Position numbers and translations under genes: made by a program
NCBI RefSeq assembly: GCF_900101505.1
Contig: NZ_FMZI01000008.1
Location: 1 to 64,000 of the forward strand
Source: Antarctobacter albus
GTDB taxonomy: Bacteria; Pseudomonadota; Alphaproteobacteria; Rhodobacterales; Rhodobacteraceae
Direction of reading: 5' to 3'
Length of the DNA stretch: 64,000 nucleotides
Notes under the pieces: model-generated
What the model was told of the DNA's origin: nothing
What the model saw: only the letters and a program-made list of their open reading frames with translations
The model's database searches: none
Part shown: positions 2,630-14,688 of the stretch, in pieces
How positions within the stretch are numbered: the stretch's first letter is position 1
How the letters are laid out: every line of letters starts with the position of its first letter

Positions 2630-4282
2630 TTAGCTGGCGACCTGTTCGCGCAGGATCGAGGCGGTCAGCGAGATCATCAGGTAGATGCCGCCGAAGATCA
2701 GGAAGGCCAGCATCGTATTCTCGAACTTGCGGGGATAGCTGGGGTCTTCCGAGGGAACGGGCACCACGGATGTGGTCAGGTAGCGGGCCTGGCTGTCGGC
2801 GTCGCGGCGCGCCTGTTCCAGGCGTTCCAGTGCCGTCTGCAACATCAGGTCTCGGGTCGAAAGATCGGCCTCTGCCAGCTTGATCTGTACCGCCACCTCG
2901 GCCAGGGAATCCTTGCCCGTGGTCGCCGTCGTCATTTCGCGGTTCAGTCGGTCCAGCAGAGCCTCAAGCCGTCGGATGTCGCCCTGCGCGCCTTCGACCT
3001 TGGCCTGGTTCGGGCGGCTGTTGTCCAGCAAGGCCTGCAGTTGCAGTTGTTTTTCCTGCAGCTGCAGCTCGTAGGTGTTGATCTGCGAGCGCAGCGCTGC
3101 AATCCGGCCTTCGGGGTCGACGACATTGCCTTCCTGTTGCATGCGGACCAGCTTTTCCTGCGCTTCGCGGCGGGCGGATTCGGCATCTATCAAGCCTTCC
3201 TCGGCGTCCTTGACCGCGTTGGACCGCTTGCGCAGCGAGAGATTGTCCACCCGCTCCTCGGCGTAACCGATCAACGCGCTGGAGAAATTGGCGGCGATCT
3301 GTGGGTCGGCGGCCATGACCTCCATCTTGATGACGCCCTCTGTCGGATCATAGCCAATCTGGACGTGACGCTTGTAAAGCGAATAGGCCTCTTCGTTTGT
3401 CGGCTCCGGGTCCAGCCGCTGGATCGGGTCGATGAAGCCTTGGGTGAAATGCGACTTGAACCCCTCGTCCCGGTCCAGGCGCAGCATGGCATCCTTGGAG
3501 GTCAGGTAGGATTGCACTGCGATGGCATCCTGGTTGGTGGCAAATTGCGTGCCCGAGAACAGCGATCCCATCGCACCGCCCGAGCTTTCTGCCTTGAGGA
3601 TCAGGAATTCCGACTTGGTCGAATACATCGGTGTCGCCACGGCATAGAAATAATACCCGGCGATAAGGGTCGGCAGCAGGACGAATGCCGCCAGCCGCAC
3701 CATCAGCAGCATCATCTTCTTGCGGCGCCGCGCGGCCAGTTCGCGCTGGATCTTGAGGATTTCGGCGGCGCGTCGTTCGGCCGGGCTGACGGTTTCGGTC
3801 GAGGGCAACTGTGCCTTTTCCAGCTTCACGGTCTGGGGCAGTTGCACCTTGGGTTCGGGTTTCGATTGCGGCGGTGAAGCGGGCTTGTCACCGGGTTCGG
3901 CCTGAACCAGTTCCAGCATGTTGGTGCGCTGGAACGGGTCGATCCCGCGTTCACGCAGCAACCGCACGGCATCGAAATCCGATGTTGCCTCAAGCCCGTG
4001 CTTGTTCGCGACGCGGCGGGCCATGCGCAGCTGGCGCCCGGTCAACCCTTCGGCGCGGATCGAGTCGATATCCGTCTCTCCGGCGACCTGGCGGGGCGAG
4101 GCCACCTCTCCACTGCGGGCCTTGGACGCGGTCCCGGCGTTCGAGAACTGCGGTCGCCCCGCCGGGGGCGTTGGGGGCGGCGCCACTGCCGGGTCGGAAC
4201 GCTCGGTCTCGGCACCCTCGCCGGACAGGGCGGCAGCGGCCGGTGAACGCCGAATGCGGAACTTCTTAGCCTTCGGTTTCAT
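2630..4282 (-). CDS. KpsE/CtrB/BexC-like capsule export inner-membrane protein
   Basis: The product is a polysaccharide co-polymerase type protein that in group 2 capsule systems links the ABC exporter KpsMT to the outer-membrane channel. From ATG 4282 it is 550 residues; another ATG at 4288 is equally possible, and both overlap the end of the KpsT-like gene. After a basic start and a Pro/Ala/Thr-rich N-terminal extension (1-185), a transmembrane helix lies at about 190-215, followed by a periplasmic domain with long coiled coil (about 330-480), a PSEDPSYPRKFENT-type proline motif, and a second helix at about 525-543. Typical family members are about 380-430 residues, so the cytoplasmic extension of nearly 190 residues is unusual. 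The overlap with the ATPase gene implies translational coupling. Confidence 0.85.
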   Translation of the reverse strand: MKPKAKKFRIRRSPAAAALSGEGAETERSDPAVAPPPTPPAGRPQFSNAGTASKARSGEVASPRQVAGETDIDSIRAEGLTGRQLRMARRVANKHGLEATSDFDAVRLLRERGIDPFQRTNMLELVQAEPGDKPASPPQSKPEPKVQLPQTVKLEKAQLPSTETVSPAERRAAEILKIQRELAARRRKKMMLLMVRLAAFVLLPTLIAGYYFYAVATPMYSTKSEFLILKAESSGGAMGSLFSGTQFATNQDAIAVQSYLTSKDAMLRLDRDEGFKSHFTQGFIDPIQRLDPEPTNEEAYSLYKRHVQIGYDPTEGVIKMEVMAADPQIAANFSSALIGYAEERVDNLSLRKRSNAVKDAEEGLIDAESARREAQEKLVRMQQEGNVVDPEGRIAALRSQINTYELQLQEKQLQLQALLDNSRPNQAKVEGAQGDIRRLEALLDRLNREMTTATTGKDSLAEVAVQIKLAEADLSTRDLMLQTALERLEQARRDADSQARYLTTSVVPVPSEDPSYPRKFENTMLAFLIFGGIYLMISLTASILREQVAS

Positions 4283-4925
4283 AGTCATAGAGCCGTTTCG
4301 CTTCTTCCAGGGTGTCGAACATATGCATCTTGCCATCCATCAGGACAGCCGCCTTTCGGGCGAATTTTTCCAGCACCTTGGGCTGGTGGCTGACGATGAT
4401 GATCGTCGTCGTGCGCAGCCTTTCGGCCAGGATGTCCCCGGCGCGCTTGTTGAAGGCGGCATCGGTGGAGTTGGGCATGCCCTCGTCGATCAGGTACATG
4501 TCGAAATCCAGCGCCAGCATCAGGGCAAAGGTGAACCGGGCCCGCATGCCAGAGGAGTAGGTGCCGATGGGCTGGTCGAAATATTCCTTCAGGTCGCAAA
4601 GCCAGCGGCAGAAGGATTCGACGTAATCCGGATCGAGTCCATAGAGCTTGGCGATGAAGCGGGCGTTTTCCTTGGCCGAGATCTTGGACACGACGCCGCC
4701 CATGAAGCCCAGCGGAAAGGAGACGCGGCAATTGCGCCTGATCTCGCCCTCGTCCGGTTTTTCCAGCCCAGCCATCATCTTGATGACGGTGGATTTTCCG
4801 GTGCCGTTCGGGGCCAGGATGCCAAGGGACTCGCCAAGGTCGACACGAAAGGAAACCCGGTCAAGGATCACCTTGCGCTGGGCGCCTGTCCAAAAGGACT
4901 TGCTGACCATGTCGAACTCTAACAT
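4266..4925 (-). CDS. kpsT: KpsT-like capsule ABC transporter ATPase
   Basis: The product is the ATP-binding subunit that powers export of capsular polysaccharide across the inner membrane. From the ATG at 4925 (MLEFDMVSKSF) it is 219 residues. The Walker A motif is APNGTGKST at 38-46, the signature SSGMR at 124-128 with the SGM form typical of KpsT/Wzt exporters rather than LSGGQ, and the Walker B is MYLIDE at 143-148. A GTG at 4997 would add 24 residues, but exporters of this family usually begin directly at the MIE-like strand. The permease partner kpsM is absent on both sides, so it must be encoded elsewhere. The end overlaps the KpsE-like gene by about 17 bases. Confidence 0.87.
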   Translation of the reverse strand: MLEFDMVSKSFWTGAQRKVILDRVSFRVDLGESLGILAPNGTGKSTVIKMMAGLEKPDEGEIRRNCRVSFPLGFMGGVVSKISAKENARFIAKLYGLDPDYVESFCRWLCDLKEYFDQPIGTYSSGMRARFTFALMLALDFDMYLIDEGMPNSTDAAFNKRAGDILAERLRTTTIIIVSHQPKVLEKFARKAAVLMDGKMHMFDTLEEAKRLYDYETEG

Positions 4926-8109: not shown

Positions 8110-9108
8110 TTACCCCAGTTCAGATCGCAAGGTCGGCAGTGTATCCCCTTGACGTGGCTCGGCTTCCCAGATTGCACGGGCGATGGCGCGGGACAGGCAC
8201 AGGCTGGCTGCATGGCCGATCATGGCCACCTGCCTGCCGGGGTCATCCAGCACCCGCGCGCCTGTCGCGGCGGCAAAGACAAGGTCCCCGTCCATCGGTG
8301 AATGCGCCGGCAGGATTGCCCGCGCGATGCCGTCATGGGCCGCAACCGCGACGCGGTGGCACTGCGCCTTGGTCAGCGCGGCATCGGTTGCGACGATGGC
8401 GATCGTGGTGTTGCCCTGGGCGGCCATTGCGCCGAGCTTGCGGCTGGGGGGGAGGGCGATGCCTGGGGACGGGTCCACGCCCAGGCCGCCGAACTCCGCC
8501 CCGAGTTCGAAGGGCGCGGCCCAGAAGTGGCGGCCCGACGGGGTGGTCACGCTGCCCATCGGGTTGGCGGCGACCAGCGCGCCAACGGTGATGCCATCGT
8601 CCAGCACGAGGCTGGCCGAGCCCAGCCCGCCCTTGTGCTGTGCGGTCTGTGCGCCGGTGCCCGCGCCGGCGGTGCCAAGGGCGAAATCCGCGGTGGCCGA
8701 GGCCAGCGCCTGCCGCCCCAGCGCGGGATAGGGATTGTCGCCCCATGCCTTGTCGCCGCCGTTCAGGAGGTCGAACAGGATGGCCGCCGGAACGATTGGC
8801 ACTCGGGCCGAGAAGATGCTGAAGCCCTTGCCTTTTTCATGCAATGCATCCATCACGCCCTGGGCCGCCGCAAGGCCGAAGGCACTGCCGCCGGACAGCA
8901 CCAGCGCATGCACGGCCTCGACCGATTTGTCCGGCGCCAGCAGGTCGGTTTCGCGTGTTCCGGGCGCCCCGCCCATGACCGAGACCGAGGCGGTGAGCGG
9001 TTTGTCCGAGGTCAGGACAGTGGTGCCCGAATTCAGCCTGTCGTTTTGGGCATTGCCGACCAGAAGGCCGGGCACATCGGTGATCAGGTTTCGGTTTCCG
9101 GGTCGCAT
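8110..9108 (-). CDS. P1/DmpA-family (S58) self-processing peptidase
   Basis: The product belongs to the DmpA/NylC fold of N-terminal-nucleophile hydrolases: a precursor cuts itself into two chains and the new N-terminal Ser or Thr becomes the nucleophile. From ATG 9108 it has 332 residues (MRPGNRNLITDVPG); the frame extends to 9183 but this start matches the family. Diagnostic parts are the NLITDVPGLLVGNA opening, LSGGSAFGLAAAQGVMD, the central GGLGSASLVLDDG, and the TTIAIVATDA and HDGIARAILPAHSPMDGD stretches near the end. Studied relatives are beta-peptidyl aminopeptidases or nylon-oligomer hydrolases. There is no clear signal peptide. The gene is alone, about 200 bases downstream of a strong palindrome. 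Confidence 0.88.
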   Translation of the reverse strand: MRPGNRNLITDVPGLLVGNAQNDRLNSGTTVLTSDKPLTASVSVMGGAPGTRETDLLAPDKSVEAVHALVLSGGSAFGLAAAQGVMDALHEKGKGFSIFSARVPIVPAAILFDLLNGGDKAWGDNPYPALGRQALASATADFALGTAGAGTGAQTAQHKGGLGSASLVLDDGITVGALVAANPMGSVTTPSGRHFWAAPFELGAEFGGLGVDPSPGIALPPSRKLGAMAAQGNTTIAIVATDAALTKAQCHRVAVAAHDGIARAILPAHSPMDGDLVFAAATGARVLDDPGRQVAMIGHAASLCLSRAIARAIWEAEPRQGDTLPTLRSELG

Positions 9109-9312
9109 GGCGGGCCTTGGGATCAGGGATTTGCCCGCAGCATCCGGGGCCGCCCGGAGAATCGCAAGGGGCCTTGGCCGCAACGGATGAAGATCCGGTG
9201 CCAGTGGCGGGCGAGGGGGTTAACGTGGTGCAGATGACACAACATGGCGCAAGATGTTGTGGTCATGCCCGGCCCGGACAGGGCCGTAGACGGAGCTGCA
9301 AGGGGCCTTTCT

Positions 9313-9361
9313 CCGTACGTTTTGTACAAAACGTACGGCGATTTCCGCAAAACGTACAAAA
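9313..9361. promoter_or_regulatory. 26-bp perfect palindrome plus a second half-related site
   Basis: CCGTACGTTTTGT followed by its exact reverse complement fills 9313-9338. A second copy of the core AAAACGTAC lies at 9349-9357, 21 bases (two helical turns) from the first at 9328. It sits in the 333-base gene-free stretch between the P1 peptidase (start 9108, minus) and the end of the ZnuA-like gene (9442, minus); nothing else gene-like is visible there. The symmetry is typical of a TetR-type dimer site, but no regulator gene is adjacent. Confidence 0.6.
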
Positions 9362-9441
9362 CCGTTCCCGCTTTGGTCCCGGTCAGGAAGGTGACGTTGC
9401 GTCGGCAAAGGTTAAGGCCCGAAAGGCGGCGGCCGAAAGGG

Positions 9442-10314
9442 CTATTGCCGTCCGGCCAGACCGGCGATTTGCGCCCGCATGACAGAGGCAAAATCCCCGC
9501 TGGCGGGCCGCGTCGCAAGCGGCGCAAAGATGACGGAGACAAGCCCCAGTTCGGCGGCCCGGTCCCGGGCCTCGCGGGGCGGTTCCGCCTCCCAGATCAG
9601 GACGGAGGCGCCGGTTTCCGCCATCATGTCCTTCAGGTCCTGCCATTGCGCCTCGTCCGGCATGGCGCCTGCCTCCCATTCGAGCGCGGCGATATCGAGC
9701 CCGTAGGCCCGGGCGAAATACTGGTAGCGGGGATGGGTGGCGATGATCGTCGTGCCTTGCAGCGTCGCAAGGGCCTCGCGCGCCTGGGTGTCGAGGGCGT
9801 CCAGATCGGCCAGCAGCGCGGGCATCGTTTCCGCCACCTGATCGCTCAGGTCGGGCATCCGGCGTTGCATGGCCGCTGCCAGCGCCCTGGCCTGTCCCGC
9901 AGCCAGGTCGAAATCGAGCCATGTGTAGCTGGCGGTGCCGGTGTGCGAATGGGCGCCATCCTCGCCGTGGCTGTGGGTCACGGACTGCGTCGCGATGAAG
10001 GCATCGGAGAGTTTGGCGGAGGTATCGACCAGCCGAGAGCGGGGCAGCGAGGCGCGCGTCGTCCAGGCCGCGAAACCGGCCCCGTTGAGCGCGATCAGGT
10101 CCGCCTGCTGGATCGCCGCGATGTCGGACAGGCCGGGCCGCCAGAAGGACGGGTCGCGCCCCTCCGGAACCGGGAACAGCACCTCGACCGCATCGCCGCC
10201 CAGGCGTTCCGCCATCCAGGCCAGCGGATAGTTCACGGTGGCCACCACGGGCCGGTCCTGCGCGCTGGCGGCGCCGGCCAGGAGGGCCAGCGCGAAGGCA
10301 AGAGGTTTGAGCAT
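9442..10314 (-). CDS. ZnuA-like periplasmic protein with degenerate metal site
   Basis: The product is a cluster A-I metal-binding protein by overall fold: signal peptide (1-18, ending GAASA), VVATVNYPLAWMAERLGGD, ADLIALNGAGF, ATHPRYQYFARAYGLD and IWEAEPP blocks all align by eye with ZnuA. A His-rich loop (H114, H116, H122, H124) precedes the TWLD segment, as in zinc-specific members. However, the positions equivalent to the E. coli ligands His60 and His143 are S56 and Y130, and the C-terminal LDPL motif reads FAPL; only H194 is kept. The protein may therefore bind metal differently or act as a receptor or chaperone. It is the last gene of the metal cassette, overlapping the previous stop by one base. 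No ZnuB- or ZnuC-type gene is near. Confidence 0.8.
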   Translation of the reverse strand: MLKPLAFALALLAGAASAQDRPVVATVNYPLAWMAERLGGDAVEVLFPVPEGRDPSFWRPGLSDIAAIQQADLIALNGAGFAAWTTRASLPRSRLVDTSAKLSDAFIATQSVTHSHGEDGAHSHTGTASYTWLDFDLAAGQARALAAAMQRRMPDLSDQVAETMPALLADLDALDTQAREALATLQGTTIIATHPRYQYFARAYGLDIAALEWEAGAMPDEAQWQDLKDMMAETGASVLIWEAEPPREARDRAAELGLVSVIFAPLATRPASGDFASVMRAQIAGLAGRQ

Positions 10315-10649
10315 CAGTTCGTTCCCTGGCCGTAGGCGATGTCGTCCGGTGTCAGCATCCAGTAGTCGGAATGGCCCTCGTTGACCTCGACCTCGATCAT
10401 CAGGCCGGTCTTCGCCGTGCCCTCGGGCAGGGGGAACCGTGTCTTGCCCTCGGCGCCGATGTCCAGCGTCATCAGCAGGACGTTCCCGGCATCCAGCACG
10501 CGGACCGTGCCCCCGGTCGGAACCCGACCGGACGAGAAGGTGGATTCCACCGTGACGGTCTGACCCGAGACGGAGGCAAAGACCCTGAGGTCATGCGCCG
10601 CCACGGGAAGGGCGGCGACAACCAGGGCAAAGGCAAGGGCGCGGATCAT
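10314..10649 (-). CDS. NikL-like small periplasmic protein
   Basis: The 111-residue product has a signal peptide ending LPVAA, so the mature chain would begin with His19-Asp. The remainder (LRVFASVSGQTVTVESTFSS, a GGTVRVLD strand and KTRFPLPEG) is one beta-sandwich domain that resembles NikL, a periplasmic accessory component of nickel ECF transporters. Here no ECF genes are present. It overlaps the preceding gene in ATGA and the following ZnuA-like start by one base, so the three are made together. A predicted N-terminal His could take part in metal binding. The NikL link is by pattern memory, not alignment. Confidence 0.7.
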   Translation of the reverse strand: MIRALAFALVVAALPVAAHDLRVFASVSGQTVTVESTFSSGRVPTGGTVRVLDAGNVLLMTLDIGAEGKTRFPLPEGTAKTGLMIEVEVNEGHSDYWMLTPDDIAYGQGTN

Positions 10650-11410
10650 TGCGCGCCCCAGGGTTCGAAGTGGACCCAGATCACCGCGCCCAGTTCGTGG
10701 GCCTTGTCCTCGCCGTCATGCTGCATCGGCTCTGCGGCGGTGTTCAGCGCGGCGAAGCCCCACCAACCGGCGGTCGGCACGGCGTAGCTGAAGACCCCAT
10801 CGGCGTCGGCCTTGATCGTCTGGGTGATCATCAGGTCCGAGGGCGCGACGGCGCTGCCGCCCTCGTTGTAGTATTCGACCTCGACCTCGGCGTAGGGCAC
10901 GGGTTCGCCGTCGAGCTTGACGATGCCCTGGAACAGGTTGCCTTCCCACAGGGCAAAGGGCTTGGACAGGGGCACGATCTCTGTCTTCAGGCCAAGTTCC
11001 GCGTCCCAGCCTTCGTCGTCGCCGTAGGCGGAAACGTAGGTCTTGGTGAAATGGGTGATGAAGGCGTCTTCCTCGGGTTCCCAGTAGGGTTTGGGCGTCA
11101 GGGCAAAGACATGCGTGCCCGGGCGTTCCAGCCGGTATTCGGCGGCAAAGCCTGCGTGGTCCATGACCTGCGTGTCCTGCAGCCTGTCCAGCAGGTCGGT
11201 CGTCTTGCCGCCATGCGTCACGGTAAAGGCCTCGGGCCGTTCCAGCACCATGCCGATGCCCTCGAACGGATGCGAGAAGGAGAGCGTCAGGTCGATGCTG
11301 CGCCCGTCTTCCTGGCTGACCATGTTGTCGGAGGGGATGATCATGCCGTAGTGGGCCGTGGCCGTCGTGGCGAGGGCGGCAAGGGCCGCGGCGGTCATCA
11401 GGGTCTTCAT
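10646..11410 (-). CDS. DUF4198 (NikK-like) periplasmic protein
   Basis: From ATG 11410, which has GGAG eight bases upstream, the product is 254 residues. A signal peptide (MKTLMTAAAL...TTATA) ends at about residue 19, leaving His20-Tyr at the new N terminus. HYGMIIPSDNMVSQEDGRSI followed by LTLSFSHPFEG is characteristic of DUF4198/NikK proteins, beta-rich periplasmic components found with nickel and cobalt transport genes. The C-terminal part (KLDGEPVPYAEVEVEYYN, then DADGVFSYAVPTAGWWGFAA) looks like a second Ig-like domain. In this window it accompanies an ABC transporter of the LolDE/MacB type and a ZnuA-like protein, not an ECF transporter. The metal is unknown. Confidence 0.8.
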   Translation of the reverse strand: MKTLMTAAALAALATTATAHYGMIIPSDNMVSQEDGRSIDLTLSFSHPFEGIGMVLERPEAFTVTHGGKTTDLLDRLQDTQVMDHAGFAAEYRLERPGTHVFALTPKPYWEPEEDAFITHFTKTYVSAYGDDEGWDAELGLKTEIVPLSKPFALWEGNLFQGIVKLDGEPVPYAEVEVEYYNEGGSAVAPSDLMITQTIKADADGVFSYAVPTAGWWGFAALNTAAEPMQHDGEDKAHELGAVIWVHFEPWGAQ

Positions 11411-11447
11411 CGGGGTGTCTCCGTTAACGGGCATTTGCAATGGTTAC

Positions 11448-12602
11448 TCAAAGTGCAAGGATCCAGGCGACCAGGCTGTCGCCGTTCATCGTGACGACCG
11501 TGACAAGCCCGGTGGCAAGCCCTGCCGACAGGATCAACAGTAGGGCAATTTCCGCGAAGGCCAATCGCAGGATCATGAAGCGGCCCGCGCCCAGGCGCCG
11601 GGCGGTTTCGATCTCGGGGGCGCGCAGGCTCCACGCCAGGAAAAGCGACAGGCCGATGGCGCCAAGCGCCGCGATCCCGATCACCAGGGTGACCGCGTCC
11701 AGGAGCGCCGCGATCCGGAAGATCCGGTCGACCAGCCCCGCGACCACCTCTGCCGGGACGGTCATCTGCAGCGGGTTCTCCGGGTCCAGGTAGCGCCCGC
11801 GCAGGATCGTCCCCGAACGGGTGTCATAGGGGGCGACCAGAACGGCGGACAGCGGGTAGTCACTCGCCGCGCCGTGGAAATGAAAGCTGTCGATGTTCTC
11901 GGGCGTGATGCGCTGGAACTGGGTGATGGCGGCATTGGCGGTGACATTGCCCGCGTCATCCGGCGTCACCACGTCGTCATGGCCGTGCCCGATGCCGGCG
12001 ATGATCCAGGTGGTCTTGACGTCGGTAAAGACGGCCTCGTCATCGGGGGTGCCGGTGGCCGCCAGCACGCCGGTGATCTTCAGTTCCAGCGGGTAGACCC
12101 CGTCGAGGTCGAAGAGGTTTTCCGGCGAGGAGACCACCGTGTCGCCGGGGCCGAGGCCCAGCCGGTCCGCCACCTGCGCGCCCAGCACCGCCTCTCCCAG
12201 GAGGGCCATCTGGCGCCCTTCGGCCACCTGAAGGCCGCGAAAGTCGAAATAGTCGAGCGAGGTGCCCACGATCCGCGCGCCATTCGTCTGGAAGGCGGTG
12301 TGCAGCGGGATCGGCAATGCCAGCCCGCTGTCCCAGACCGCGTCCTCGGCGGCGCGGGTGACGGGCTGGGCGCGGTCCTGCGAGAAATAGACCGCACTCA
12401 TCACCAGGTCGAGCTGGCTGCCGCGTGCGCCCAGCACCAGCGGCGTGACCTCGGCCCGGCGGGTCAGCGCCTCTTCGGAGCCGCGCAACAGGACCTGTGT
12501 CACCAGCGGGACGGAGAGGATCAGCGCGCCGACCACGACGAGCAGGAGACTGCGCGCCCATGTCCAGCGCAGGTGGGCGAAGGCCAGGAAAAGCGCGTTC
12601 AT
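11448..12602 (-). CDS. FtsX/LolE/MacB-type ABC permease
   Basis: This 384-residue membrane protein has one N-terminal helix (about 15-38), a large periplasmic domain (about 40-290) and three C-terminal helices (about 290-312, 340-360, 362-382), the topology of FtsX/MacB mechanotransmission transporters. The domain has the MacB-PCD-like segments TSLDYFDFRGLQVAEGR and LGEAVLGAQVADRLGLGPGD. Two His motifs, GHGHDD (H206, H208) and FHFHG (H241, H243), face the periplasm and could touch metal. The gene overlaps the ATPase gene in ATGA. Such transporters pull on periplasmic partners rather than moving ions through a channel, which is unusual beside a ZnuA-like protein. Confidence 0.85.
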   Translation of the reverse strand: MNALFLAFAHLRWTWARSLLLVVVGALILSVPLVTQVLLRGSEEALTRRAEVTPLVLGARGSQLDLVMSAVYFSQDRAQPVTRAAEDAVWDSGLALPIPLHTAFQTNGARIVGTSLDYFDFRGLQVAEGRQMALLGEAVLGAQVADRLGLGPGDTVVSSPENLFDLDGVYPLELKITGVLAATGTPDDEAVFTDVKTTWIIAGIGHGHDDVVTPDDAGNVTANAAITQFQRITPENIDSFHFHGAASDYPLSAVLVAPYDTRSGTILRGRYLDPENPLQMTVPAEVVAGLVDRIFRIAALLDAVTLVIGIAALGAIGLSLFLAWSLRAPEIETARRLGAGRFMILRLAFAEIALLLILSAGLATGLVTVVTMNGDSLVAWILAL

Positions 12603-13261
12603 GCGGGCTGTCTCAGGGTGGCAAAGTCGATTACCCGGTCGAAACGGGGCAAGAGGTCGTGGTCATGGGTCACCGCAAGCACGGTTGCCTGCATGTCAGA
12701 GGCCCGGTCGAAGAGCAGGTCGAGGATGGCTTCCTTGGTTTCGGGATCGAGGTTGCCGGTGGCCTCGTCCGCGAGGATCAGTTTCGGCCGTGTGACCAGC
12801 GCCCGGCAGATGGCCACGCGCTGCTGTTCGCCCCCCGACAGCGCGGCGGGATGGCTTTTCAGGCGATGCGCGATGCCGCAGGCCTCTGCCAGGGCGCGGG
12901 CCCGGTCCCTGACCTGCGCATCCAGGCGCAGCCCGAGGCCGACGCGATAGGGATAGAGGATGTTCTCGTAGGCGTTCAGGTAATCGACCAGCGCGAAGTT
13001 CTGAAAGATGAAACCCACATGCGTTGCCCGGAACCGCCGCCGCGCGGCGTCGTCCAGCGTGGCCAGGTCGCTTCCGGCGACGGTCAGCGCGCCGGCATCC
13101 GCCCGCACCATCCCGGCCACCAGGTTCAGCAAGGTCGTCTTGCCGGTGCCGCTGGGGCCGATCACGCCGACACGTTCGGACGGGGCCACGTCCAGCGCGG
13201 GCACCTTGAGGGCAAAGCCTCCGCCGGGATAGGCAAAGGACAGGTCGCGGGCCGCGATCAA
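12599..13261 (-). CDS. LolD/MacB-type ABC ATPase
   Basis: The 220-residue product powers the adjacent FtsX-type permease. It has Walker A GPSGTGKTT (35-43), a Q-loop FQNFALVDYLNAYEN, signature LSGGEQQR (141-148), Walker B LILADEATGNLD (about 160-171) and H-loop THD, all canonical for the LolD/MacB/FtsE group. It starts with TTG at 13261, inside a TTGA overlap with the upstream stop; no better start exists nearby, and the first strand IAARDLSFAYPGG follows directly, as in relatives. Gene order ATPase then permease, with four-base overlaps on both sides, supports a single complex. Confidence 0.92.
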   Translation of the reverse strand: MIAARDLSFAYPGGGFALKVPALDVAPSERVGVIGPSGTGKTTLLNLVAGMVRADAGALTVAGSDLATLDDAARRRFRATHVGFIFQNFALVDYLNAYENILYPYRVGLGLRLDAQVRDRARALAEACGIAHRLKSHPAALSGGEQQRVAICRALVTRPKLILADEATGNLDPETKEAILDLLFDRASDMQATVLAVTHDHDLLPRFDRVIDFATLRQPA

Positions 13262-13827
13262 CTACCGTCTCCTGCGGGCGGTGCGTCGGCATTGCGTTCC
13301 AGCGTGCCCGCGTCGCTGCGGTCGACCTCTGTCAGCGAGAAGCCGGTGATTTTCCATGCCCCCTGGTCGGCGGCCATCGTGAGATCGGCGGCATAGGCAT
13401 TGCCCCGCATGTGCATGTGTTCGGCATGGCCGACCACGCCCAGGACGCGCCACCTTGCGGTGATGTCGACAAGGTCGCCGTTTCGGCGCGCGCTCATGCC
13501 CAATAGCGAGACCTCGTGGATTTCCTGATCCGGGTTCAGGCCGCCCCCGGCCATCGCCCCGACCCGTTCGAGGTAGAGCTGTTCCAGCGCGGGGCCCGTG
13601 GCCACCTTTGCCAGCCGGTCGTAGATCTCTGCCTCTTCGGTTTGACTGAAAGCCTCGTAGATCGTGGCGAGGATGCCGGGCAGCAACAAGGGGCTTTCGC
13701 GTGAGAATTCCTGCGGGGACATGCCGTCCGCAGAGACCGGGCCGGTCCGGTCAGGCGCGATGAAGCTCCAGGCGCCGATCGCGATGCCGGCCGCCGCCAG
13801 CGCCGCGGCCAAGATGTTTCTGAGCAT
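13258..13827 (-). CDS. membrane-anchored periplasmic protein of the metal cassette
   Basis: This is the first gene of the cassette. From ATG 13827 the product is 189 residues: an N-terminal hydrophobic segment (about 4-24) with no lipobox, then a mixed alpha/beta domain. Residues 35-70 (MSPQEFSRESPLLLPGILAT onward) are helical, and 115-165 look like strands of a cystatin- or NTF2-like fold. The motif GHAEHMHMRG (H134, H137, H139 with two Met) looks suited to metal binding. I do not recognise a named family. The frame is open to 13917, but the signal anchor makes 13827 the sensible start. It ends in an overlap with the ATPase gene. Confidence 0.7.
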   Translation of the reverse strand: MLRNILAAALAAAGIAIGAWSFIAPDRTGPVSADGMSPQEFSRESPLLLPGILATIYEAFSQTEEAEIYDRLAKVATGPALEQLYLERVGAMAGGGLNPDQEIHEVSLLGMSARRNGDLVDITARWRVLGVVGHAEHMHMRGNAYAADLTMAADQGAWKITGFSLTEVDRSDAGTLERNADAPPAGDGS

Positions 13828-13947
13828 GATACGACTGCACCGCCTTCCGAACTGTCGCCAAGAGCATAGTGCAGACCGGTTTGCGTGCAAGGCGGGCCGG
13901 GATGGTTCGTCTTGCATCCGGGGCCATGTCTGAGTTTGCGGGCGCCC

Positions 13948-14688
13948 TCAGATACACCGCCCGCCGTCCACCTCCATGCAGACGCCGGTGATCATGTCGG
14001 CCTCGTCCGAGCAGAGGAACAGCGCGGCGTTGGCCAGGTCGCGGGGGGTGGAAAACCGGCCCAGCGGGATGGTGGAGAGGAATTTCGCCCGCATCTCGGG
14101 GGTGTCCTCGCCCATGAAGCTGGCGAGCAGGGGCGTTTCGCCCGCCACCGGGTTCAGTGCGTTGACGCGGATGCCCGCGGGCGCCAGTTCCACCGCCATT
14201 GCCCGCGTCGCGGTGTTCATCCAGCCTTTGGAGGCGTTGTACCAGTTCAGGTTCGGCCGGGGAGAGACGCCGGCGGTGGAGGCCACGTTGAGGATCGCGC
14301 CTGATCCCTGTGCCTTGAGCGCGGGGACAAGCGCGCGGGCGGTGAGGTAGACGGACTTGCAGTTGACGGCAAAGACGCGGTCGAAGTCCTCTTCGCTGAC
14401 CTCTTCCATCGGCGCGGGCAGATGGGTGATGCCGGCGTTGTTCACCAGGATGTCGATGCCGCCCATGTGCTCGGTCGCCAGCGCCATGAGGGCGCGGACG
14501 CTGGACCCGTCCGAGACATCGGTGTGCAGGGGATGGGCGCCGGTCGCCTCGGCCACCTTGCGGGCGTTTTCATAGTTGATGTCGGCCACGACCACCTGCG
14601 CGCCCTCGGCGGCGAAACGGGTGACGATCCCCTCGCCAAAGCCGGAGCCGCCGCCGGTGACGATGGCGCGTTTGCCTTCCAGTCTCAT
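13948..14688 (-). CDS. SDR-family oxidoreductase
   Basis: This 246-residue classical short-chain dehydrogenase/reductase has the cofactor motif TGGGSGFG (about 11-18), ADIN after strand two (D at its end favours NAD), NNAG, and the catalytic YNASK with Ser upstream (VASTAGVS). The end MITGVCMEVDGGRCI is typical of the family. GGGAGACCC precedes ATG 14688. It follows another SDR gene by eleven bases, so the two probably act on related alcohols or sugars. The substrate is unknown; their position downstream of the oligopeptide-type transporter genes suggests catabolism of an imported compound, as an inference only. Confidence 0.88.
   Translation of the reverse strand: MRLEGKRAIVTGGGSGFGEGIVTRFAAEGAQVVVADINYENARKVAEATGAHPLHTDVSDGSSVRALMALATEHMGGIDILVNNAGITHLPAPMEEVSEEDFDRVFAVNCKSVYLTARALVPALKAQGSGAILNVASTAGVSPRPNLNWYNASKGWMNTATRAMAVELAPAGIRVNALNPVAGETPLLASFMGEDTPEMRAKFLSTIPLGRFSTPRDLANAALFLCSDEADMITGVCMEVDGGRCI

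Follow-up and report, generated by a model that had tools for sequence, protein, structure and literature searches.

What would a ZnuA-like receptor and proteins resembling NikK and NikL do in one unit with an ATP-binding cassette (ABC) transporter of the MacB/FtsX type? The question is raised by six open reading frames (ORFs) on the minus strand, positions 9442–13827, of a 64 000 nt stretch of the Antarctobacter albus genome (contig NZ_FMZI01000008.1; hereafter the window), here labelled A-B-C-D-E-F in the order in which they are read from the operon start. The six genes were found to form a true conserved unit, shared by many marine bacteria, and the nearest of the named systems tested was the Zrg system known from Vibrio cholerae (zrgABCDE). 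The proposal developed below, to which we give an even chance, is that the cassette may be an ATP-driven machine of the cell envelope, dedicated to a borderline transition metal (zinc most likely) that would be transferred or released in the periplasm.

An earlier reading of the window from its letters alone (the sequence-only reading) had described a six-gene minus-strand unit with overlaps at four of its junctions and a 37-base gap at the other, and the ORFs and junctions agreed with this. The overlaps had been given as ATGA or one-base, which holds for B/C and D/E (ATGA) and for E/F (one base, TGATG), whereas the A/B junction is a four-base overlap of TTGA, since B starts with TTG; the gap between C and D is the only non-overlapping junction of the five. 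Pfam matches upheld the families given for B (ABC_tran), C (MacB_PCD, 35.7 bits against a cut-off of 27), D (DUF4198, 197.9 bits, cut-off 34) and F (ZnuA family PF01297, 138.2 bits, cut-off 29), and with C the MacB/FtsX-like type of the transporter. The NikL assignment of E stayed short of this, at 68.9 bits against the NCBIfam model with its curated cut-off of 100, and A matched no family in Pfam or NCBIfam. A sigma-70 promoter scan over positions 9000–14200 of the window returned zero sites.

Table 1. Coordinates of the cassette genes and of their motifs in the window, and of one receptor gene at a related locus
Feature	Position	Strand	Remarks
A, anchored protein, 189 aa	13258..13827	-	Single hydrophobic helix (N-terminal), small periplasmic domain; no family match
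A, H134-x2-H137-x-H139 motif	13411..13428	-	Three His invariant, 48/48
B, ABC ATPase, 220 aa, TTG start	12599..13261	-	Walker A, signature, Walker B and H-loop by eye; included in ATPase tree
C, MacB/FtsX-like permease, 384 aa	11448..12602	-	Three predicted transmembrane helices, large periplasmic domain
C, GHGHDD motif	11973..11990	-	H206 and H208 invariant, 56/56
C, FHFHG motif	11871..11885	-	H241 and H243 invariant, 56/56
D, DUF4198 protein (family of NikK)	10646..11410	-	Signal peptide, then His at the mature N-terminus, by eye
E, NikL-like protein, 111 aa	10314..10649	-	Signal peptide, then His at the mature N-terminus, by eye
F, ZnuA-like (cluster A-I) receptor, 290 aa	9442..10314	-	Clade apart from six canonical ZnuA/SitA-type receptors
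F, DPSFWRP	10135..10155	-	Column of the first canonical ligand: A, S, V or M in 50/50
F, loop H114xH116G..H122xH124	9943..9975	-	Four His invariant, 50/50
SitA-type receptor gene	L029 5778-6731 (= L061 5719-6672)		Divergent from cassette

A whole-genome search with C (E ≤ 1e-20) matched 21 of the 295 family genomes, that of the window included, and 12–18 kb around the permease was read in each of the other 20. All six genes were present in the same order in 18 of these 20 relatives, one of which (L040) had about 0.9 kb between E and F. The exceptions were L045, which carried A-B-C-F only, and L041, in which D was missing and the permease and ATPase frames were broken. L041 (also L087) is a Marinovum metagenome-assembled genome (MAG), and its broken frames and missing D may reflect decay or assembly error. 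Stop-to-start distances, with the window included, were −4 to +1 for A/B and −8 to −1 for B/C (20 cases each), −4 to +43 for C/D and −16 to +3 for D/E (19 cases each), and −13 to +41, with one of 924, for E/F (20 cases); start codons of the relatives were set by rule, for most genes as the one closest to the upstream stop, which favours overlaps.

When named genomes were scanned with the permease alignment, at least 333 relatives were confirmed, of which 80 were kept: 43 from Alphaproteobacteria and 37 others, comprising Gammaproteobacteria, Desulfobacterota, Nitrospinota, Rokubacteria, one Flavobacteriaceae MAG, Vibrio hangzhouensis and one 'Pseudomonadota'. The alphaproteobacterial loci overlap largely with the 20 relatives, so that the two counts are not independent; many of the 37 others are MAGs, some on short contigs, and several incomplete loci stop at the contig end. 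Counting genes within 6.5 kb of C, the alphaproteobacterial loci comprised ABCDEF (37), ABCD (two) and BCD, ACEF, ABCF and CDEF (one each), and the others ABCF (20), BCF (eight), ABC (five), BC (two), and ABCDEF and ABCEF (one each). All 38 six-gene loci (37 alphaproteobacterial and one other) had the order A–F on a single strand. Conservation of the gene order, set beforehand as a test that could refute the idea of a unit, was thus borne out (18/20 and 37/43). The core consists of A, B, C and F; D and E are an addition seen mainly in Alphaproteobacteria. Genes recurring in the flanks of the alphaproteobacterial loci belonged to broad families (ABC ATPases, short-chain dehydrogenases, response regulators and adenylating enzymes) at scattered positions, and it is therefore the unit itself that is conserved. 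A plasmid carries the cassette in Paracoccus liaowanqingii, where F precedes D and E and where another DUF4198 gene stands in front; an A-B-C-F core is likewise plasmid-borne in Methylomagnum ishizawai. In a Saccharospirillum MAG (L108 10243–10905) the gene of a further secreted protein, which has no Pfam match, shares 4 bases with the end of F. No description of this gene set was found in the open-access literature.

A profile built from 56 cassette permeases scored 76.8 bits against the ZrgB of Anianabacter and 73.9 bits against that of Aeromonas, compared with 8.7 for LolE, 5.8 for MacB, 2.0 for LolC and 1.0 for FtsX; all scores against LolC, LolE, MacB, FtsX and the YbbP halves lay within 1–13 bits. 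These Zrg comparators were identified by a zrgA gene adjoining the permease (128.9 bits, cut-off 27.4, in Anianabacter; by eye in Aeromonas) and, in Aeromonas, by DUF3299. In the ATPase tree, 17 cassette ATPases were placed beside ZrgC with support of 92/87, and topologies joining the cassette with LolD or with MacB were rejected (p-AU 0.0096 and 0.018, respectively). L041 was left out of the ATPase set, its called ORF having no start codon, and its truncated permease was left out of one permease alignment. The profile also gave 71 bits with a paralogous permease in the window genome; the ATPase of this paralogue and that of a Rhizobium system fell with LolD, FtsE, MacB and YbbA. By these comparisons the cassette permease and ATPase appear clearly homologous to those of Zrg, the nearest of the named systems tested, yet form a distinct clade. 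The proposed machine had been thought not to be described, a view that does not hold as stated: two reports contain an account of Zrg as a relative (in part, PMC9820375 and PMC11481552).

The same comparisons bear on lipoprotein release of the LolCDE type, with metal genes adjacent by chance. B did score 168–170 bits against the LolD and FtsE models, far under their cut-offs. The tree test and the profile scores for LolC and LolE reject this candidate, the gene set is conserved across phyla, and there is a single permease gene rather than two; we give it a negligible chance. A firm grouping of permease and ATPase with LolDE, which the sequence-only reading had named as a refutation of its idea, was not found: on their sequences the two are not LolDE.

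By hydropathy, the cassette permeases have a first transmembrane (TM) helix and two late ones, the last of which ends a median of 14 residues before the C-terminus. Exactly two hydrophobic segments were present in the last 30 % of the protein in 54 of the 56 permeases; those of L064 and L099 had an extra segment before TM2 and none after TM3. LolC, LolE, FtsX, MacB and both ZrgB proteins had a further hydrophobic segment after TM3 on the same measure, and the ZrgB comparators matched the FtsX domain over almost its full length. As far as hydropathy tells, a three-helix permease appears to be a trait of the family.

The histidines at positions 206, 208, 241 and 243 of C were the only invariant ones in the permease alignment, any other column having histidine in at most 22 rows. 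Invariance here and below refers to the rows aligned, namely the window protein with 55 (C), 47 (A) and 49 (F) rows picked from 79, 67 and 69 references. For the permease it is partly built in, the 56 sequences having been found with patterns that covered GHGH and FHFH; the 20 same-family relatives, which came from a whole-protein search free of this bias, also keep the histidines of GHGH and FHFHG, and the histidines of A and F lay outside the search patterns. All the histidine motifs that had been pointed out in the permease, the anchored protein and the receptor loop were present. Relatives conserve the motifs of C and of F, and in A the H-x2-H-x-H spacing; the Met of HAEHMHM in A is not conserved. 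Arg 141 of A was invariant too in the 48 rows.

The profile of F aligned nearly end to end with AdcA and YcdH, and the register of the canonical ligands was taken from those alignments. The pocket of F departs from that of a normal ZnuA-type receptor: of the three canonical histidines, which we take to be metal ligands, the window protein keeps the third only. At the first position (56) Ala was found in 33 rows, Ser in 12, Val in three, Met in two and His in none of the 50, although two rows had His next to it, at 57. The second position (130) was not His in 44 of the 50 and is Tyr in the window, and the third (194) was His in 48. The fourth ligand of the cluster A-I pocket varies between subfamilies; among candidate columns for it in F, Asp or Glu occurred in 21/50 rows at position 264 and in 1/50 at position 267. 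F formed its own clade, with support of 100/100, against six canonical receptors, and the window genome's own ZnuA keeps PH and DPHVW. In ordinary cluster A-I receptors the loop is variable in length and composition, as far as the account in PMC9820375 goes. By sequence, the F proteins appear to combine a fixed set of loop histidines with a decayed canonical pocket.

For A, an NTF2-like fold is a guess; its comparison with Protein Data Bank profiles gave chance-level matches only. E matched designed repeat proteins among the same profiles, which was read as chance, and D had no match there. In most loci from outside Alphaproteobacteria the A domain forms the C-terminal region of a longer protein, about 600 aa in length. 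Such long A proteins (L094 3257–5170 and similar) have an N-terminal part of about 450 aa that starts with ADWINLTGAE after the signal peptide, and in L094, the one compared with the two libraries, neither Pfam nor NCBIfam had a match to this part.

How might these parts work together? MacB-type proteins transmit ATP-driven motion to the periplasm, according to the relevant section of PMC11481552. Because histidine clusters are fixed in receptor, permease and anchored protein, a relay is the simplest scheme. Two copies of B and two of the three-helix C would form a mechanotransmission core of the MacB/Zrg type. F would carry the metal on its invariant loop (HxHG..HxH), perhaps with the retained His194, instead of in the decayed pocket, and would dock on the periplasmic domain of C, where GHGH and FHFHG could accept or release the metal as the periplasmic domains open and close. 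A, with its H-x2-H-x-H, may be the other end of the relay, a partner at the membrane. ATP hydrolysis in the cytoplasm would thereby drive a periplasmic opening and closing that strips the metal or hands it over, and in Alphaproteobacteria D and E could serve as extra periplasmic metal carriers. Metal-type histidines are invariant in all three proteins, in line with the idea of a periplasmic machine for metal transfer or release; the transfer or release itself, like the binding of metal, we infer. It is also possible, although we suggest it tentatively, that the cassettes represent a widespread undescribed class in which a three-TM MacB-like permease and its ATPase move metal between periplasmic histidine clusters rather than across the membrane, a ZnuA-type receptor has been repurposed so that its His-rich loop is the metal site, and the TM helix of A replaces the missing fourth helix of the permease.

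The metal is probably zinc. Zinc is favoured because of the descent from relatives of Zrg and ZnuA, the Zur-type boxes of L028 and Anianabacter, and the flanking ZnuA/SitA-type genes, and the absence of conserved Cys or Met from the motifs would favour Zn, Ni or Co over Cu(I). In L028 an exact Zur-type box lies about 40 bases before znuA (223.2 bits, cut-off 29), A follows on the same strand 73 bases after the end of znuA, and a FUR-family gene, an ABC ATPase (znuC-type) and an ABC-3 permease (znuB-type) are divergent from znuA (L028 3831–7676); the cassette there looks like the tail of a Zur-controlled unit. In Anianabacter, zrgA with its permease and ATPase genes (L056 3907–6421) is divergent from the cassette, and two exact GTTATNNNATAAC Zur-type boxes lie between the zrg genes and the cassette (L056 6524–6569). 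Among relatives, the box pattern of Zur control is thus present in L028 and possibly in Anianabacter. Further canonical ZnuA/SitA-type receptor genes flank the cassette in five of the 20 relatives and in four of the 43 alphaproteobacterial loci, three of them shared; given two such genes in the 5.26 Mb of the window genome, the expected number for the 474 kb of alphaproteobacterial flanks is about 0.2, a rough estimate with no control.

The four exact Zur-type sites of the window genome stand before znuA (contig C21), a CobW-type GTPase gene (C27) and the permease/ATPase paralogue (C10), with the fourth on C24, and matches with up to 2 mismatches inside the window were at chance level; the Zur site whose presence upstream of 13827 had been proposed for testing was not found in the window. 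On C27 the gene directly behind the exact box (L150 ~3087–4337) is of the CobW/G3E type by eye. On C10 the second permease/ATPase pair, of the same broad type (L046 ~8934–10795, minus strand), has its exact box at C10:80937–80949, about 140 bases before the start of the paralogous ATPase, with a heavy-metal P-type ATPase gene (by eye) nearby. Just downstream of F in the window, the 26 bases at 9313–9338 form a perfect palindrome (CCGTACGTTTTGTACAAAACGTACGG), accompanied by a further half-site, which looks like an operator for the next gene.

A plain second zinc importer would be a different reading of these data, in which the Zrg-like permease, with its ATPase, would take zinc into the cytoplasm and F would replace ZrgA as the substrate-binding protein. 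Zrg, the nearest named relative tested, is treated as a zinc importer in V. cholerae genetics (PMC9820375, in part), F descends from importer receptors, and in L028 a Zur-boxed znuA directly precedes the cassette. The permease, however, has only three predicted TM helices, the window receptor retains a single canonical ligand histidine, the window cassette is not among the exact Zur-type sites of its genome, and that genome already has a Zur-boxed ZnuA and ABC-3 permeases. We consider import rather unlikely.

Several observations also weigh against the proposal of a zinc machine related to Zrg. No exact Zur-type site was found at the window cassette, all four of the genome lying elsewhere. Only one of 82 scanned loci, that of Anianabacter, has exact Zur-type boxes right before the cassette, where the neighbouring zrg operon can explain them, and in the scan of 21 loci such boxes were met only in Anianabacter and L028. 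The co-occurrence of ZrgA with the cassette was not significant (7/21 against 50/274 genomes, Fisher p 0.15). The best single score of the permease profile, 89.0 bits, was to the unnamed Rhizobium permease, whose ATPase did not group with the cassette in the tree, and the branch of cassette and ZrgC was not starred and involved long branches. Six of the 50 F receptors retain the second canonical histidine. Finally, the DUF4198 and NikL kinship, with a NikR gene by the Methylomagnum copy, points equally to nickel or cobalt; a TonB receptor beside the same copy was noted with these pointers.

Sites for NikR had also been suggested, and the window stretch and 20 related loci gave only weak matches, within or far from cassette genes, none of them convincing. 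CbiM/NikM was found in 7/21 cassette genomes and in 110/274 others (p 0.65), 14 of the 21 having no match; the idea that D and E are accessories of a NikMQO system elsewhere in the genome was rejected, CbiM not being enriched. A perfect TGAGAATTATTCTCA, which is Fur/Mur-like, lies about 100 bases before A in L029, between the cassette and the divergent SitA-type receptor gene of Table 1, and no regulator box was shared across the 21 and 82 scanned loci. This box, non-ribosomal peptide synthetase (NRPS) genes in three alphaproteobacterial loci and Peripla_BP_2 receptors in four are pointers to iron or a metallophore.

The last of these neighbours bear on a further reading, in which the cassette would export excess metal, a metallophore or a metal complex; such export has been proposed for PA4063–PA4066 of Pseudomonas aeruginosa, with pyochelin-cobalt. 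The MacB fold class and the experimental P. aeruginosa case (PMC11481552, in part) speak for it, as do the NRPS genes near L068, L072 and L075, the Peripla_BP_2 receptors (iron-siderophore/cobalamin type) near L071, L076, L077 and L087, and a phosphopantetheinyl transferase near L090. These metallophore-type genes, however, stand at varying positions in a minority of the 43 alphaproteobacterial loci, no MacA was matched among the six cassette proteins in Pfam or NCBIfam, and F is a receptor-type protein, which makes export quite improbable. Loading of metalloenzymes, with metal taken from F and put via A into periplasmic or exported clients, has its own genomic association: at least 12 of the 37 non-alphaproteobacterial loci, some with little flank, have a gene for a GntH-type metallo-hydrolase near the core, mostly upstream of A (L104, L110, L114, L115, L119, L128 and six others; of the two tested, L128 scored 490.7 and L104 399.9 bits in NCBIfam, cut-off 333). 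No member of the GntH-type gene cluster was present in any of the 43 alphaproteobacterial loci, and we regard loading as unlikely.

The periplasmic zinc machine proposed here can be set beside the known systems. F shares PF01297 and the alignment with AdcA and YcdH with the receptors of ZnuABC and cluster A-I, but ZnuABC has the canonical pocket histidines, of which F lacks the first in all 50 rows and the second in 44, with its loop histidines invariant. The cassette unit has no ZnuB (ABC-3 permease) or ZnuC; D belongs to DUF4198 and E resembles NikL, as in NikKMLQO, but the unit lacks NikM, NikQ and NikO. The absence of such partners, claimed from the window, is true of the window and not of the genome, which has ABC-3 permeases on C21 and C35 and a CbiM/NikM on C19. 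Orphan NikK and NikL genes in no known context have been reported (PMC2667541, in part), and the cassette may supply a genomic home for some of them. Accounts of the zinc and Zur responses of two Alphaproteobacteria (PMC4176598, PMC5387054) contain no such cassette in the portions relevant here.

Among ABC systems, FetMP-FetABCDEF of Campylobacter jejuni resembles the cassette in that a metal system is supported there by an ABC transporter, FetBCD, whose substrate is unclear (PMC10783030, in part). It differs in having the iron permease FetM, the P19-type FetP, thioredoxins and two permease genes, and is likened by description only. LolCDE has two four-TM permeases, LolC and LolE, where the cassette has one with three predicted TM helices, and MacAB-TolC has a fused ATPase-permease with MacA, where the cassette has separate genes.

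Of the named systems tested, Zrg stands closest. Like the cassette, it has separate genes for a MacB/FtsX-like permease and an ATPase, together with histidine-rich periplasmic proteins, and the available text of PMC9820375 and PMC11481552 pairs the same permease/ATPase type with a histidine-rich periplasmic zinc protein and ties it to zinc and Zur. Its function is disputed: the genetics of V. cholerae zrgABCDE treats it as a zinc importer, with ZrgB described as MacB-like and having four TM helices (PMC9820375, in part), whereas its relative PA4063–PA4066 is proposed to be a MacB-type pyochelin-cobalt exporter (PMC11481552, in part). The Zrg permease has the fourth TM helix that the cassette permease lacks by hydropathy, and the GHGH and FHFHG motifs of the cassette were not seen by eye in the first 330 residues of Anianabacter ZrgB. 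Zrg has ZrgA (PF10986) and ZrgE (DUF3299), whereas the cassette has A (anchored) and F (ZnuA-like), joined by D and E in Alphaproteobacteria. No ZrgA is found in the cassette, where A, D, E and F match other families or none; the window genome gave no match either, in a search in which control genomes also gave none, the same model matching 60 of the 295 family genomes. Zrg is tied to Zur, and most cassette copies have no Zur box in front. On sequence grounds the cassette is a distant relative or sister variant of Zrg, departing from it in ZrgA, in the four-TM permease and, in the window, in Zur control. As a sister system it has its own set of invariant histidines in three proteins, its permease is smaller and the fold of its receptor is known, and for these reasons it would offer a clean test of whether MacB-type ABC proteins can handle metal ions in the periplasm.

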